DNA from: a virus
IMG/VR virus record: IMGVR_UViG_3300044655_000522
Coordinates: 1 to 36,322 of that record
Strand: one strand, 5' to 3'
Length of the DNA: 36,322 nucleotides
The translations under genes were made by a program, and so were the position numbers. The stretch's first letter is position 1, and the number at the start of each line of letters is the position of its first letter. The notes beneath the pieces were generated by a model, which was given only the letters and a program-made list of their open reading frames with translations, searched no databases and was not told the DNA's origin. This document shows positions 4,386 through 9,623 of the stretch, one piece after another.

Positions 4386-4414
4386 ATATTACACACACTT
4401 TTATTTAATTGCAA
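4386..4414 (-). promoter_or_regulatory. Leftward sigma-70-like promoter 2
   Basis: Reading the minus strand: -35 TTGCAA (4414-4409), 17-base spacer, -10 TAATAT (4391-4386). AT-rich ATTATTT repeats lie just upstream of the -35. The start of the transcript (GAAGTTGTG...) can form a short hairpin. The whole block is similar to the promoter at 4990-5018, so one is a copy of the other. Confidence 0.7.
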
Positions 4415-4453
4415 GCATTATTTACAATTATTTTCAATTTATTTTAAAATAAA

Positions 4454-4675
4454 TTACCATTTATCGGAATGGCAAATACAATCATCATCGCATTTTTGAA
4501 TAAATGTGGCTTGCAACAAAACATCTTTAACAGTATCGCCCGAAATTGAATGATGACCATCAACAGAAAAACCTGCTTCCAACAAAATTTCATAAGGTTC
4601 GCCAACAACTTTATCAAGCATAAAATCATAAACATTGGGATTGCTGTCAATTAACTTTTGCAAAACTTTACTCAT
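4454..4675 (-). CDS. Hypothetical acidic protein, 73 aa
   Basis: Chosen over an overlapping minus-strand frame because the ATG at 4675 follows AAAGGAAACTATT. The product is acidic (VYDFMLDKVVGEPYEILLEAG) with a Cys/Asp-rich end (KCDDDCICHSDKW) that could bind metal. It ends just ahead of the second leftward promoter, so its mRNA probably reads through into that unit. No family recognised. Confidence 0.65.
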   Translation of the reverse strand: MSKVLQKLIDSNPNVYDFMLDKVVGEPYEILLEAGFSVDGHHSISGDTVKDVLLQATFIQKCDDDCICHSDKW

Positions 4676-5020: not shown

Positions 5021-5048
5021 ATTATTTTAATTATTTTTAAATTATTTT
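5021..5048. repeat. Three direct ATTATTTT repeats in the divergent control region
   Basis: ATTATTTT occurs at 5021, 5030 and 5041, roughly one helical turn apart, between the leftward promoter 1 and the rightward promoter. A looser set (ATTATTT at 4417, ATTATTTT at 4427) lies in the same place beside leftward promoter 2. They could be UP-elements for RNA polymerase or operators for the HTH protein encoded at 5096. Confidence 0.5.
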
Positions 5049-5074
5049 GTAAAAAGTTTAAATAGATGTATAAT
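5047..5074 (+). promoter_or_regulatory. Rightward early promoter
   Basis: -35 TTGTAA (5047-5052), 16-base spacer, consensus -10 TATAAT (5069-5074). The predicted start is about 5081, leaving a very short leader with AAGGAAA before the ATG of the HTH gene at 5096. An ATG at 5066 overlaps the -10 box and is therefore not a start. Confidence 0.75.
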
Positions 5075-5095
5075 GCAATTTTTAAGGAAATAATT

Positions 5096-5275
5096 ATGGA
5101 ATCAAATTTAGATTATGTAAGACGCAAATTGCAAGACCCAATTTATAACATTGGGGCGATTGCCAATCAATTAGGTATTCAGCGTTATCGGTTGGACAAG
5201 ATTATTAAAGGTGGCGATGCCAAATACAGTTTGATTGAAACATTGTCCGTTTACTTTAAAAATATAGCGGCATGA
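5096..5275 (+). CDS. Small helix-turn-helix protein, putative Cro-like regulator, 59 aa
   Basis: 59 residues from the ATG at 5096, which follows AAGGAAA (5084-5090). Residues about 18-40 (IGAIANQLGIQRYRLDKIIKG) fit a helix-turn-helix with a recognition helix, followed by an amphipathic helix likely to dimerise. It is the first gene of the rightward operon and sits beside divergent promoters flanked by direct repeats, so it probably controls one or both of them. The next gene overlaps it by ATGA. No longer CI-type repressor is seen. Confidence 0.7.
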   Translation: MESNLDYVRRKLQDPIYNIGAIANQLGIQRYRLDKIIKGGDAKYSLIETLSVYFKNIAA

Positions 5276-5619
5276 CAACTGAACACGCTGAACAGGTCGC
5301 AACCGTTACTTGGTTTCGCTATCAATACCCAAAATATGCCAAATGCTTATGGGCAATTCCTAACGGCGGCGCACGACATATTGGAACAGCCGTCAAGTTA
5401 AAAGCCGAAGGTGTTGTTGCAGGTGTTCCCGATTTGTTTCTTATGATTCCCAAAAATGGTTGGCATGGGATGTTCATTGAAATGAAAATTAAGGGCGGCA
5501 AGTTACAGGAAAACCAAAAAGAATTTATGGGGCTGGCAATTTTGCTTGGGTATCAGTCGGTGGTTTGTTATGGATTTGATGACGCAAAAAACGCCATAAC
5601 TGCTTATTTAAACCCGTAA
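5272..5619 (+). CDS. VRR-NUC domain nuclease
   Basis: 115 residues, the size of stand-alone phage VRR-NUC proteins of the PD-(D/E)XK superfamily. Seen: an early Glu (EHAEQ), the NGGARH segment near 31-36, GVPDLFL with D54, then IEMKIKGG with E70 and K72, and QENQ following. These make a complete metal site. The family cleaves branched or flapped DNA; in phages it is usually next to replication genes, as here, immediately before the presumed origin. Translationally coupled to the HTH gene by ATGA. Confidence 0.85.
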   Translation: MTTEHAEQVATVTWFRYQYPKYAKCLWAIPNGGARHIGTAVKLKAEGVVAGVPDLFLMIPKNGWHGMFIEMKIKGGKLQENQKEFMGLAILLGYQSVVCYGFDDAKNAITAYLNP

Positions 5620-5621
5620 AG

Positions 5622-5706
5622 TTATCCACAGTTTTTAAGTTTACGGCAAAAAGTTATGCACAATCTATCCACAGATTTTAGCCGTTTAATGCACAGGATA
5701 TCCACA
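5622..5706 (+). other. DnaA-box array, probable replication origin
   Basis: Five 9-mers in one orientation match TTATNCACA perfectly or with one mismatch: TTATCCACA at 5622, TTATGCACA at 5654, CTATCCACA at 5665, TAATGCACA at 5687 and ATATCCACA at 5698. Start-to-start distances are 32, 11, 22 and 11, so all boxes lie nearly on the same face of the helix. Downstream to about 5820 are short repeats (AAAACGCG at 5738 and 5748; TTAAAAGTGCC at 5756 and TTAAAGTGCT at 5780; GCTAAAA at 5787 and 5806), then an AT-rich stretch (5821-5860) that could unwind. The region is non-coding and precedes the replication initiator gene. Confidence 0.75.
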
Positions 5707-5831
5707 AGGCGGCAAGGCTACCATATAGCCGACCATTAAAACGCGCCAAAACGCGTTAAAAGTGCCTTGGTGGGCATGATTAAAGTGCTAAAACAGGCAT
5801 TTTTGGCTAAAATGGGGTTGTAAATAAACCC

Positions 5832-5860
5832 TTGCAAAGTTAAATTAGATAAATTAAGAT
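5832..5860 (+). promoter_or_regulatory. Candidate rightward promoter for the replication genes
   Basis: TTGCAA (5832-5837), 17-base spacer, TAAGAT (5855-5860). The -35 and the spacing are the same as in the two leftward promoters. The predicted transcript would begin near 5867, at the 5' side of the long inverted repeat that follows. The -10 is only four of six, so confidence is moderate. Confidence 0.5.
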
Positions 5861-5862
5861 TC

Positions 5863-5960
5863 GCAAATCGGATTGATAAACCGGTTCACTTAAAGGATGT
5901 ATCACAAAATGTTCCAATTTAATTTCTATTCACTAGCGGAAAAAGTATCAATCCGTTTGC
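5863..5960 (+). promoter_or_regulatory. Structured leader with long-range inverted repeat
   Basis: GCAAA-T-CGGATTGATA (5863-5878) is complementary, with one bulged T, to TATCAATCCG-TTTGC (5946-5960). A competing pairing joins AAGGATG (5893-5899, the shine-dalgarno of the small ORF at 5909) with CATCCTT (5960-5966). A further hairpin GCTGGA-CTTATCA-TCCAGC is at 5982-6000. Together with the 33-codon ORF this looks like a leader that can adopt alternative folds. Confidence 0.5.
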
Positions 5961-6010
5961 ATCCTTGCGTGGTTTTTTACTGCTGGACTTATCATCCAGC
6001 CCGCTACTGA
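5909..6010 (+). CDS. Possible leader peptide, 33 aa
   Basis: A 33-codon frame from ATG 5909, with AAAGGA ten bases upstream, ends 12 bases before the HNH gene start. The peptide is rich in aromatic residues and Cys (FQFNFY near the start, VVFYCWTYHP near the end) and does not resemble a known protein. The coding sequence is also part of the inverted repeats of the leader, so its translation could change RNA folding. It may equally be a chance ORF. Confidence 0.4.
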   Translation: MFQFNFYSLAEKVSIRLHPCVVFYCWTYHPARY

Positions 6011-6022
6011 ATAGGAATTGAT

Positions 6023-6445
6023 ATGGCGCAAAAAAATTATTGGCAAAAACTTCAAGACCCAAGATGGCAAAAATTAAGGCTAAAAGCAATGGAAGCCGCA
6101 GATTTTAGTTGTGAAATATGTGGAGATAATGAATCAACTTTAAATGTTCATCATAAAGAATACTTTAAAGGACATGAGCCTTGGGATTATCACATTGGGC
6201 AATTATCTGTTTTATGTGAAGATTGCCATGAAGAACAGCACGATAATTTAGACCTTTTAAAAATTGTTACATCATATTTACCGCTTGATGGTTTTATGAA
6301 TAGAACGGAATGTGCATTTTTGCTGGCTGGGGTTAGTGGATTATCTTATGAATCTGTAATTACAGTTTCATGTTTAAATGAAATTGAATACCATAAAAAA
6401 ATACATACATTGGGCTTAAAAATTAGGAGTAAATTTAATGGCTGA
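6023..6445 (+). CDS. HNH endonuclease-like protein
   Basis: 140 residues. Residues 28-75 form a zinc-stabilised HNH core: C30/C33 and C65/C68 pairs, H43-H44 in NVHHKEY, the PWDY segment and H69/H73 in CHEEQH. An N-terminal basic helix (YWQKLQDPRWQKLRLKAME) is typical of this group. The C-terminal 65 residues are helical and of unknown role. It begins the replication operon, overlapping the initiator gene by 8 bases. Such proteins in phage replication regions nick or cut DNA; the exact target cannot be told. Confidence 0.75.
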   Translation: MAQKNYWQKLQDPRWQKLRLKAMEAADFSCEICGDNESTLNVHHKEYFKGHEPWDYHIGQLSVLCEDCHEEQHDNLDLLKIVTSYLPLDGFMNRTECAFLLAGVSGLSYESVITVSCLNEIEYHKKIHTLGLKIRSKFNG

Positions 6446-7118
6446 ACGCAGAATGTTTGCAAAAACTATCATTGATAGCGATGCTTTTTTAGATATGCCT
6501 TGTTCTACCCAATCATTATATTTTCATTTATCAATGCGTGCCGATGATGATGGATTTATAAATAACGCTAAAAAAATACAACGAATGATTGGATGTGCGG
6601 ATGATGATTTAAAGATATTACTGGCAAAGAATTTTGTCATACCATTTGAAAGTGGTGTATGTGTAATTAAGCATTGGAAGATTCATAATTTAATTCAAAA
6701 AGACCGATATAAACCTAGCGTTTACATAGATGAAAAGGCTAAATTGTCTTTAAAAGATAACAATGTTTACACAATGGAAACACAATGTTTCCAAGATGTT
6801 TCCAAAGTGGAATCACAGGTTAGGTTAGGTCAGTCAAGTTTAGTTGAGGTAAGTAAAGTTAATCGCGCAAATGCGCTTGATGTAGAATTTGAACAATTTT
6901 GGAAAGCATACCCAAAGAAAAAAGATAAGCAGAAAGCAAAACAAGCATGGCTTAAACAAAGACCGCCATTAGATGATGTTTTGTTTGCATTGTCTTGGCA
7001 AAGGGAATCTGCTGATTGGAAAAAGGAAGATGGAAAGTATATCAAGCACCCCGAACGGTATTTAAACGCTGGCAGTTGGCAAGATGAACAGCCCGTTATT
7101 GATATAAACCCATTTTAG
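6438..7118 (+). CDS. Phage replication initiator (replisome organiser-like)
   Basis: 226 residues. Residues 1-90 (ERRMFAKTIIDSDAFLDMP, then SLYFHLSMRADDDGF and KIQRMIG) match the winged-helix N-terminal domain of phage replication proteins that bind the origin. Residues 145-215 carry the FWKAYPKKKDKQKAKQAW and KYIKHPERYLNAGSWQDE motifs typical of the C-terminal domain. A variable linker joins them. A strong AGGAG precedes the start. The gene lies about 730 bases after the DnaA-box array and immediately before a helicase-loader-like gene, the usual O/P-like pairing. Confidence 0.85.
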   Translation: MAERRMFAKTIIDSDAFLDMPCSTQSLYFHLSMRADDDGFINNAKKIQRMIGCADDDLKILLAKNFVIPFESGVCVIKHWKIHNLIQKDRYKPSVYIDEKAKLSLKDNNVYTMETQCFQDVSKVESQVRLGQSSLVEVSKVNRANALDVEFEQFWKAYPKKKDKQKAKQAWLKQRPPLDDVLFALSWQRESADWKKEDGKYIKHPERYLNAGSWQDEQPVIDINPF

Positions 7119-7126
7119 GAAACTAT

Positions 7127-7549
7127 ATGACCGATTTAGACAAATTAGCATTTAAAGACATGATTGTTGCCGTCTTTGCTATCTACAACAAACCACCACC
7201 CGAAAAGGAAATGTTAAGGATTTGGTTTCATAAACTATCACGCTTTGATTTTAGCGTTGTAGCAAAAGCCCTTGATGTATGGACAGACACACCAAACAAG
7301 TTGCCACAACCTGCTGACATTATTGCCCTATGCAAACCAAGGGAAGATGTTTACTTTGCATTGCCATCGCCTGTCAATTACGCAGAAAACAAAAAGCACA
7401 TAGAAGAATTAAACACATTTGTTGCTAAAAAACTTAAACCTAAGACTGACCATAAGGCATGGGCAAAACGAATTATTGCTAATCCGCAGAATTTTCCCGA
7501 AATAAGTTTGAAATACGCACAGGAAGCAATGCAACATGAAATGGCTTAA
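7127..7549 (+). CDS. Putative helicase loader / replication protein P-like
   Basis: 140 residues with a helical N-terminal region (FKDMIVAVFAIYNKPPPEKEMLRIWFHKLSRFDFSVV) and the LPQPADIIALC motif, a pattern found in phage proteins that follow the replication initiator and are thought to recruit the host DnaB helicase. The C-terminal segment (DHKAWAKRIIANP) resembles the tail of the same group. Start after AGGAAACTAT. The role is inferred from pattern and position; no ATPase motif is present. Confidence 0.65.
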   Translation: MTDLDKLAFKDMIVAVFAIYNKPPPEKEMLRIWFHKLSRFDFSVVAKALDVWTDTPNKLPQPADIIALCKPREDVYFALPSPVNYAENKKHIEELNTFVAKKLKPKTDHKAWAKRIIANPQNFPEISLKYAQEAMQHEMA

Positions 7550-9037: not shown

Positions 9038-9232
9038 ATGAAAGAAGTTCAAGCCGCAGTTAAACAACTTGTTAGCACATACCGTAGCATTGATGAAGAT
9101 GCTAAGCGTTATACACTTGACCCTGCCGATGTAGCAAAAGCATTAGCAGATGCTAAAGACGGTTCAGTTGAACAAACTGTTTTGTTAGTATTAGCCAAAC
9201 TTAATCCAGTTGCCGACAGTTCCAAAAAATAA
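9038..9232 (+). CDS. Hypothetical protein, 64 aa
   Basis: 64 residues, helical and acidic, with a good GGGG-containing shine-dalgarno before the ATG at 9038. The pattern DPADVAKALADAKDGSVEQTVLLVLAKL suggests a compact helical domain. No family recognised. The end overlaps the start of the next HNH gene by 23 bases. Confidence 0.65.
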   Translation: MKEVQAAVKQLVSTYRSIDEDAKRYTLDPADVAKALADAKDGSVEQTVLLVLAKLNPVADSSKK

Positions 9233-9623
9233 TAAGTGCCGTGAGTTAGGGTGCAACAATCCCAAAACAACACGGTCTTGTTTTTGCAATGAACATGGCG
9301 GTGGCATAACGGATAAGGGTAAGGCTAACAGCAAACTATATTCAAGTGTCGCTTGGAAAAAGCAACGCACAATACAGTTAAGCCAACAGCCGTTATGTGC
9401 AGGTTGTTTATGTGCAGGTAAGATAGTGCAGGCGGAACATATAGACCATGTGTTTCCGCATAGGCAGAACAACGATAAGTTTAAACGCAACATCTATCAG
9501 TCTTTATGCCAATCTTGCCACACATTAAAGACACAGATGGAATCGCATGGGCAATACCTGTATTACACAAGAGATGGAGTGCATACCTACACGGATGCCG
9601 ATTACAATACAATAGTTGGATAA
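9210..9623 (+). CDS. HNH endonuclease of the terminase-associated type
   Basis: About 137 residues. An N-terminal Cys4-type ribbon (C10, C15, C24, C26/H29) precedes the HNH core: C63/C66 in PLCAGC, then AEHIDHVFPH with H77, D79 and H80, N94, and C100/C103-H104 with K107. HNH proteins of this type next to P27-type terminases are known in cos phages, where they are needed with the terminase to cut concatemers. The only workable start is a TTG at 9210, since a stop lies just upstream. Confidence 0.8.
   Translation: MPTVPKNNKCRELGCNNPKTTRSCFCNEHGGGITDKGKANSKLYSSVAWKKQRTIQLSQQPLCAGCLCAGKIVQAEHIDHVFPHRQNNDKFKRNIYQSLCQSCHTLKTQMESHGQYLYYTRDGVHTYTDADYNTIVG

Follow-up and report, generated by a model that had tools for sequence, protein, structure and literature searches.

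The 36,322 bases of an IMG/VR virus record (the entire stretch of DNA analysed, hereafter the window) contain an array of five DnaA boxes, which to judge from related sequences is part of a conserved module of about 215 bp, made up of the boxes and a conserved block, to which some phages add a sixth, inverted box. The array probably recruits host DnaA to the benefit of the phage. We favour the interpretation that this composite host-DnaA recruitment element belongs to the replication origin of the phage as an auxiliary component that depends on DnaA, and put the chances of its being correct at about even; it is preferred to a function as a sink for DnaA or in promoter control.

According to profile matches, a leftward early operon of the window encodes a Sak annealing protein and a YqaJ exonuclease, and a rightward operon beginning at about 5.07 kb encodes VRR-NUC, HNH, a DnaD-like helicase loader and NinB; terminase, portal, protease and endolysin genes follow. 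The genes next to the element, all on the plus strand, are a VRR-NUC nuclease-like gene just 5' of it (5272-5619; PF08774, E = 3.2e-11), an HNH endonuclease-like gene (6023-6445; phrog_119, E = 3e-16), the DnaD-like helicase loader or replisome-organiser gene (6438-7118; phrog_8489, E = 1.9e-78), and a gene for a possible second helicase-loading protein (7127-7549), which matches phrog_2289, 'helicase loader', only weakly (E = 0.0054). A preliminary description of this DNA had assumed a non-coding gap of 290 bases; the actual gap comprises 403 bases (5620-6022) and is ended by the HNH ORF. The description had also stated that no polymerase or helicase is encoded. Comparison of 30 ORFs with PHROGs, a set containing few of the virion ORFs, revealed neither a polymerase nor a replicative helicase, but the phage does encode the DnaD-like helicase loader. 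Searching genomes with this loader gave 67 loci, mostly from clostridia and other Bacillota, but not a single close relative.

The array sits head to tail on the plus strand between the VRR-NUC and HNH genes, at 5622-5706. Boxes 1 (TTATCCACA, 5622-5630) and 2 (TTATGCACA, 5654-5662) are perfect; boxes 3 (CTATCCACA, 5665-5673), 4 (TAATGCACA, 5687-5695) and 5 (ATATCCACA, 5698-5706) have one mismatch each. The start-to-start distances of 32, 11, 22 and 11 bp between five boxes of the same orientation, as given beforehand, were confirmed. Across the whole window there is no excess of near-boxes (53 observed, 63.7 expected). However, at least four near-boxes within 85 bp of one strand occurred in none of 200 first-order Markov copies, and three in 20 of 200. 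The proposed spacing in multiples of the helical turn held as well: A pitch of 10.87 bp gives a Rayleigh R of 0.99, and one of 10.5 bp an R of 0.85; when boxes were placed at random without overlap across an equal span, 25 of 20,000 placements were phased as well as the real ones. Clustering of the boxes and their phasing of about 10.9 bp thus exceed chance, and the Markov copies together with the random placements rule out chance clustering as the origin of the array. An artefact of a single contig is ruled out too, as the array is present in 13 contigs plus distant ones.

To the right of the boxes lie the non-box block CGCGTTAAAAGTGCCTTGGTGGGCATGAT (5752-5780, plus strand) and a weak inverted sixth box, TTATTTACA, with one mismatch (5819-5827, minus strand). 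In all 16 elements measured, whatever their layout, 54-56 bp separate the start of the last box from that of the block. The latter reads CGCTTAAAA or CGCGTTAAAA, followed in most cases by GNGCCTTGGTGGGCATG or a similar sequence (alignment A2), and is absent from L358 and L367, the two loosest rows of A2. A perfect inverted box to the right exists in four of the 16 elements (L087, L039, L254, L346) and one with a single mismatch in the window, L002, L004 and L007; in the remaining eight, no inverted box within one mismatch was found. After merging repeat fetches of one contig, the module is present in the window and 12 related contigs. Array clusters occurred in five of the 80 loci that the loader retrieved (L002, L003, L004, L007, L039) and, overlapping with these, in seven of 43 fetched with VRR-NUC (L003, L082, L083, L084, L086, L087, L096; the sequence of L085 stops within the array); a pattern scan added L254, L339, L346 and L363, of which L254 also turned up with a more generic two-box pattern. 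Ten other loader-fetched loci with looser groups of three or four near-boxes, none of them perfect, were counted as chance.

Conservation follows the boxes. Mean identity is 96% in box columns versus 75% in spacers in alignment A1 (9 rows) and 93% versus 66% in A2 (17 rows, picked by hand), a contrast which is partly built in, because the rows of both were chosen for having box clusters. None of 84 circular shifts of the box mask matched the real contrast, either in A1 or in A2 (columns with more than 30% gaps excluded). Near-copies (L331 and L356 of L320 and L262, L254 of L039), L363 and repeat fetches were left out of the alignments. A search of all loci for the block alone returned 13 true copies including that of the window, each with four or five boxes at most 150 bp upstream, and no boxless copy. 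Three further matches (L047, L171, L318) are due to chance, as the rest of the block is missing; a diverged copy in L096, likewise accompanied by boxes, escapes the search pattern. The box layouts differ, with offsets of 0, 32, 43, 65 and 76 in the window, 0, 32, 53, 66 and 86 in L004 (five perfect boxes) and 0, 32, 43, 66 and 86 in L039 and L254; those of L087 and L096 are 0, 32, 55 and 66, with an additional box of lower quality at 43. Yet the spacings hold near multiples of 10.8-11 bp (L222, L245, L254 and repeated spacing patterns were omitted from the phasing analysis of the relatives). On these comparisons, the boxes are both helically phased and under selection.

The module also behaves as a unit. 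By eye, the 3' end of the VRR-NUC gene leads directly into a sigma-70-like promoter in relatives lacking the module (L006, L091); in carriers, the module is placed between this gene and a similar promoter. In L039 and L254, boxes and block are inverted together relative to the promoter on the loader side and the flanking genes keep their usual direction, which counts as one event since the two loci are near-identical. In L087, the module is positioned after an extra gene. The same layout and block recur in contigs with a G+C content near 0.5 (L201, L262, L320, L330, L331, L356). When 7.5-15 kb of each were compared by tblastn, L262, L330, L331 and L356 gave no match to 11 window proteins, L320 gave one weak match among 11, and L201 gave none to nine. 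In L201, L262, L330 and L356 the element adjoins a terminase large-subunit-like gene, with an ArdC-like gene on its other side in L201 and L262 (gene names assigned by eye; families of these kinds recur among the profile matches of array neighbours), and L262-type elements have no obvious AT-rich region beyond the block. More than one type of loader accompanies the element: Those of L222, L254, L339 and L354 match the window loader over only 84-98 residues. Since the array is non-random, was turned as a unit, and occurs in otherwise dissimilar contigs, and since no boxless copy of its block was found, the element is under selection and movable, which fits binding of host DnaA and is what an assembly site for this protein would lead one to expect. 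BLAST searches of named phages with the window's element gave only two weak matches (E = 3), and those of plasmids with the L262 element none that was convincing; no description of such an element in phages was found among the titles and abstract openings of the open-access literature. Paired palindromic repeats of the type GGTTAGTGnnnRCTAAC, probably operators, lie just past the block in L262 (about 9150-9250), L201, L320 and L330.

How indispensable the element is can be judged from 18 longer records (26-39 kb), which were picked by hand to include three known carriers and in which only perfect boxes were counted. Clusters were found in all three carriers; the 15 non-carriers have between 0 and 4 perfect boxes per record and no pair of them within 1 kb. 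A second candidate origin is found inside the loader gene. Here, TRF detected 11-bp tandem repeats, ACAATGTTTAC, as candidate iterons (6760-6801, plus strand), which are followed by 5-bp AGGTT-like repeats as a candidate second part of an iteron origin (6817-6855, plus strand; 6817-6830 by TRF with a low score of 28, the rest by eye). Such repeats occupy the linker-coding stretch of the loader gene and belong to the 11-bp family, to a 5/10/15-bp AGGTT/AGGTA family, or to both. Repeats scoring at least 35 are present in 48 of 52 loader genes, the window's included, versus 11 of 520 codon-shuffled copies; 41 genes have 11-bp repeats, 42 have 5-bp repeats, 35 have both, and those of L013, L016, L017 and L023 have only weaker ones. 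(The first TRF listing gave at most three repeats per gene; the codon-shuffle control came from a later run.) In-gene repeats also occur in the distant bacterial loci L124, L125, L136 and L145, and in all ten of the 15 non-carriers whose loader gene was in the 52-gene set. The repeats at 6760-6855 are a likely candidate for the phage's own iteron origin. Because the 15 non-carriers do without the array and the loader repeats persist in the ten of them examined, the array is to be regarded as accessory and not as the core origin. The earlier proposal that the phage loads DnaA instead of relying on its own initiator alone is thus upheld as to a selected, phased DnaA-box element, but it has to accommodate a candidate iteron origin which is kept with or without the array.

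A similar arrangement is known from phage SPP1, where oriL consists of direct repeats within gene 38 that are bound by gp38, and gp39 is the loader (PMC6316719). Likewise, the window's loader gene has internal direct repeats and is followed by the possible second loader gene. In contrast, SPP1 encodes its own DnaB-type helicase, DnaA is unmentioned in the accessible portion of PMC6316719, and the window adds a DnaA-box array.

In the auxiliary-origin interpretation, in which every step from the binding of DnaA through strand opening and helicase loading to origin activity itself is inferred from the DNA, host DnaA would bind the five head-to-tail boxes on one face of the helix, plus the weak facing box, and would oligomerise on the element. 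The oligomer might then help to open nearby DNA or stimulate the promoter immediately to the right, and the DnaD-like loader, acting at the in-gene repeats 1.1 kb downstream, would place the host helicase. The best-supported part of this mechanism is a phased oligomer of host DnaA on the element. That the element adjoins replication genes supports an origin; that it is dispensable, that its AT-rich stretch overlaps a promoter and that a perfect IHF site is missing count against this reading. The AT-rich stretch described previously does follow the boxes (5800-5859) and is among the 4% least stable 60-mers. However, it overlaps promoter-like sequence, and the stretches 5021-5080 and 4398-4457 are less stable in the melting profile, which was for these reasons dropped as decisive evidence. 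The sign of the GC skew reverses around 5 kb; as gene direction switches at the same place, the skew decides nothing and was dropped too. An exact match to the IHF site WATCAANNNNTTR is absent from 5600-5870.

Bacterial oriC and DnaA-dependent plasmid origins share with the element clustered, co-oriented and helically phased boxes and, with some relatives, an inverted box on the far side. The element differs from them in being phage-borne, in lacking a clear unwinding region, and in being accessory to another candidate origin. A DnaA-trio or basal unwinding sequence next to a box is an oriC-type feature, as defined in the accessible portion of PMC8287927. For Pseudomonas phage PseuGes_254, Ori-Finder predicted an origin with DnaA boxes from a single genome (PMC11512268), so that there, too, DnaA boxes have been proposed as part of a phage origin; unlike here, an analysis of conservation, phasing or modules is absent from the available text of that article.

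Another possible function concerns the sequence immediately to the right of the element. A sigma-70-like promoter, TTGCAA-17-TAAGAT, was recognised by eye at 5832-5860 on the plus strand; it agrees with the consensus in 8 of 12 letters and stays under the threshold of the pattern scan. Array-bound DnaA could tune this promoter of the replication genes, in the way that DnaA stimulates pR of phage lambda, and the last box ends about 125 bp upstream. Similar promoter-like sequences adjoin relatives with and without the module, which agrees with such control. Against it stand the single inversion event that turned the module round with respect to the promoter (L039 and L254) and the 15 non-carrier records, which manage without the module; we therefore regard transcriptional control as improbable.

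Directly after this promoter, a structured leader RNA (type B, 5862-6022, plus strand) reaches to the HNH start codon, which is included in its long stem; loops at 5874-5879 and 5989-5994 could kiss. Type B also occurs in L089, L090, L093, L100 and L114. The whole-leader folding z-scores are -4.7 for the window, -2.5 for L089 and -4.8 for L114, and shorter pieces of L089 and L114, in which the stem lacks its 3' end, score -0.6 and -1.6. Loop pairing across the leader is possible, by eye, as TGATAA/TTATCA in the window and L114 and as ATTGAC/GTCAAT in L089. The commonest leader form of the relatives, type A, follows the early promoter directly and precedes replication or HNH genes (e.g. L091:5353-5474, plus strand). 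Its 5' hairpin has a loop that pairs with internal bases of a long terminator-like stem at the 3' side, and this stem has a U-run adjoining the ribosome-binding site. In a MAFFT alignment of 25 copies (24 distinct), made from sequence only and not fitted to the structure, which was drawn from one copy, this structure pairs in 95.2% of the cells, with changes on both sides in 26 of the 38 pairs. Its covariation value of 0.542 compares with 0.166 for shuffles and with no more than 0.076 for slid positions of the structure. Two long-range pseudoknots are proposed for type A, of which the first appears well supported by covariation (three of six pairs changed on both sides) and the second weakly (only one of four). 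A type A model matched once each in 39 of 75 loci, including the 25 used to build it, and did not match the window. In the window and 12 loci scanned, Rfam gave no gathering-score match to type A or B, and the weak matches were far below the cut-offs. A further leader type was noted by eye upstream of the loader in L013, L014, L016, L020, L028 and L036; its 5' loop, e.g. GGTCAAG, matches the loop of a 3' terminator-like stem, CTTGACC, and both sides change together between loci. As a guess, the leaders may be regulators of the early operon, perhaps antiterminators like put of phage HK022, as far as the accessible portion of PMC9378689 describes it.

The most serious competitor of an auxiliary origin is a DnaA sink: As phage copies multiply, the array would soak up host DnaA, so that the host origin is held back and host replication proteins are freed. 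The accessory nature of the element among the 18 longer records agrees with this, and so do arrays in other phages. A generic two-box pattern scan gave at least 120 stretches, of which 80 were examined; 65 of these contain a cluster of at least four boxes, two of them perfect. Because the pattern preselects paired boxes 28-34 bp apart, these counts say nothing about the frequency of arrays among phages. Neighbouring same-strand boxes in 67 distinct arrays gave 256 spacings of 9-27 bp, of which 120 are exactly 11 bp and 158 are 10-12 bp. The two pattern scans together yielded 144 distinct clusters from viral contigs chosen by box patterns, the window's family included; 139 of them are not within any ORF longer than 150 aa, and terminase genes are often close by. 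Of 215 neighbours in total, 171 are ORFs of 100-1000 aa; 150 of these, less eight of the window's own family, made up the 142 proteins compared with profiles. Terminase subunits were the commonest PHROGs, followed by helicases and primases (among 25 of 101 families listed). In Pfam, GP88 came first (six proteins), then a terminase domain (four), and no DnaA family was among the 25 of 31 families listed. These terminase-rich neighbours, and the absence of a DnaA family from those listed, rule out that similar arrays come mainly from contaminating chromosomal DNA.

Three isolated T7-like phages, which bring their own polymerase and helicase, make the sink a strong rival: Shigella phage VB_Ship_A7 has nine, Escherichia phage P483 eight and nasanit six same-strand boxes near the terminase large-subunit gene, at a distance of about 0.7 kb in VB_Ship_A7 and P483. 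As in the window, these boxes are co-oriented, many of them 11-12 bp apart; unlike in the window, the phages have a replisome of their own, so that an origin role of their arrays is doubtful, and a search of the parts fetched gave no copy of the non-box block. Five relatives lack a cluster of three boxes in the stretch fetched, namely P694 and S523 in the corresponding stretch, and FE44, 285P and BA14, whose records end 120-160 bp past the matched part. By eye, T7-like relatives have CATAAGG-like repeats but no box cluster at the corresponding place. The T7-like arrays were noted at loci L194, L245, L270, L373 and L378. BLAST with such an array matched 32 records, counted by the match alone and not by boxes per record, and microvirus-type records including PQ006258.1 are among the matches. 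A sink in the window would work like datA of Escherichia coli, a DnaA titration site of about five boxes outside an origin with an IHF site, though it would not be a copy of it: The box number and the location outside an origin agree, whereas a perfect IHF consensus is missing from the window's element and a conserved non-box block is added. This block argues against a sink, for which boxes alone would suffice, since it accompanies the boxes at a constant distance. On balance, we consider the sink possible but rather unlikely.

The same neighbourhoods raise the question of whether a protein other than DnaA recognises the boxes as repeats that serve DNA packaging or a genome-end function. Arrays do lie near terminase genes in several other contigs and in the T7-like phages, but the terminase genes of the window are 4.5 kb away from the array (10.2-12.5 kb), and the motif is the host DnaA consensus, which makes this explanation very improbable.

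The auxiliary DnaA-dependent origin thus remains the interpretation we favour. A bolder reading, which we hold to be doubtful, sees in the module a movable cassette for capturing host DnaA that is swapped between otherwise unrelated phages in either orientation, and that would both aid copying of the phage and starve the origin of the host chromosome. The use or depletion of host DnaA by tailed phages is known from few models, such as lambda and P1. A portable conserved element, together with arrays in isolated E. coli phages, makes the question of whether phages exploit or deplete DnaA directly testable. If the cassette reading were true, with arrays gained separately in T7-like phages, removal of DnaA would be a widespread and as yet undescribed strategy of phage takeover.
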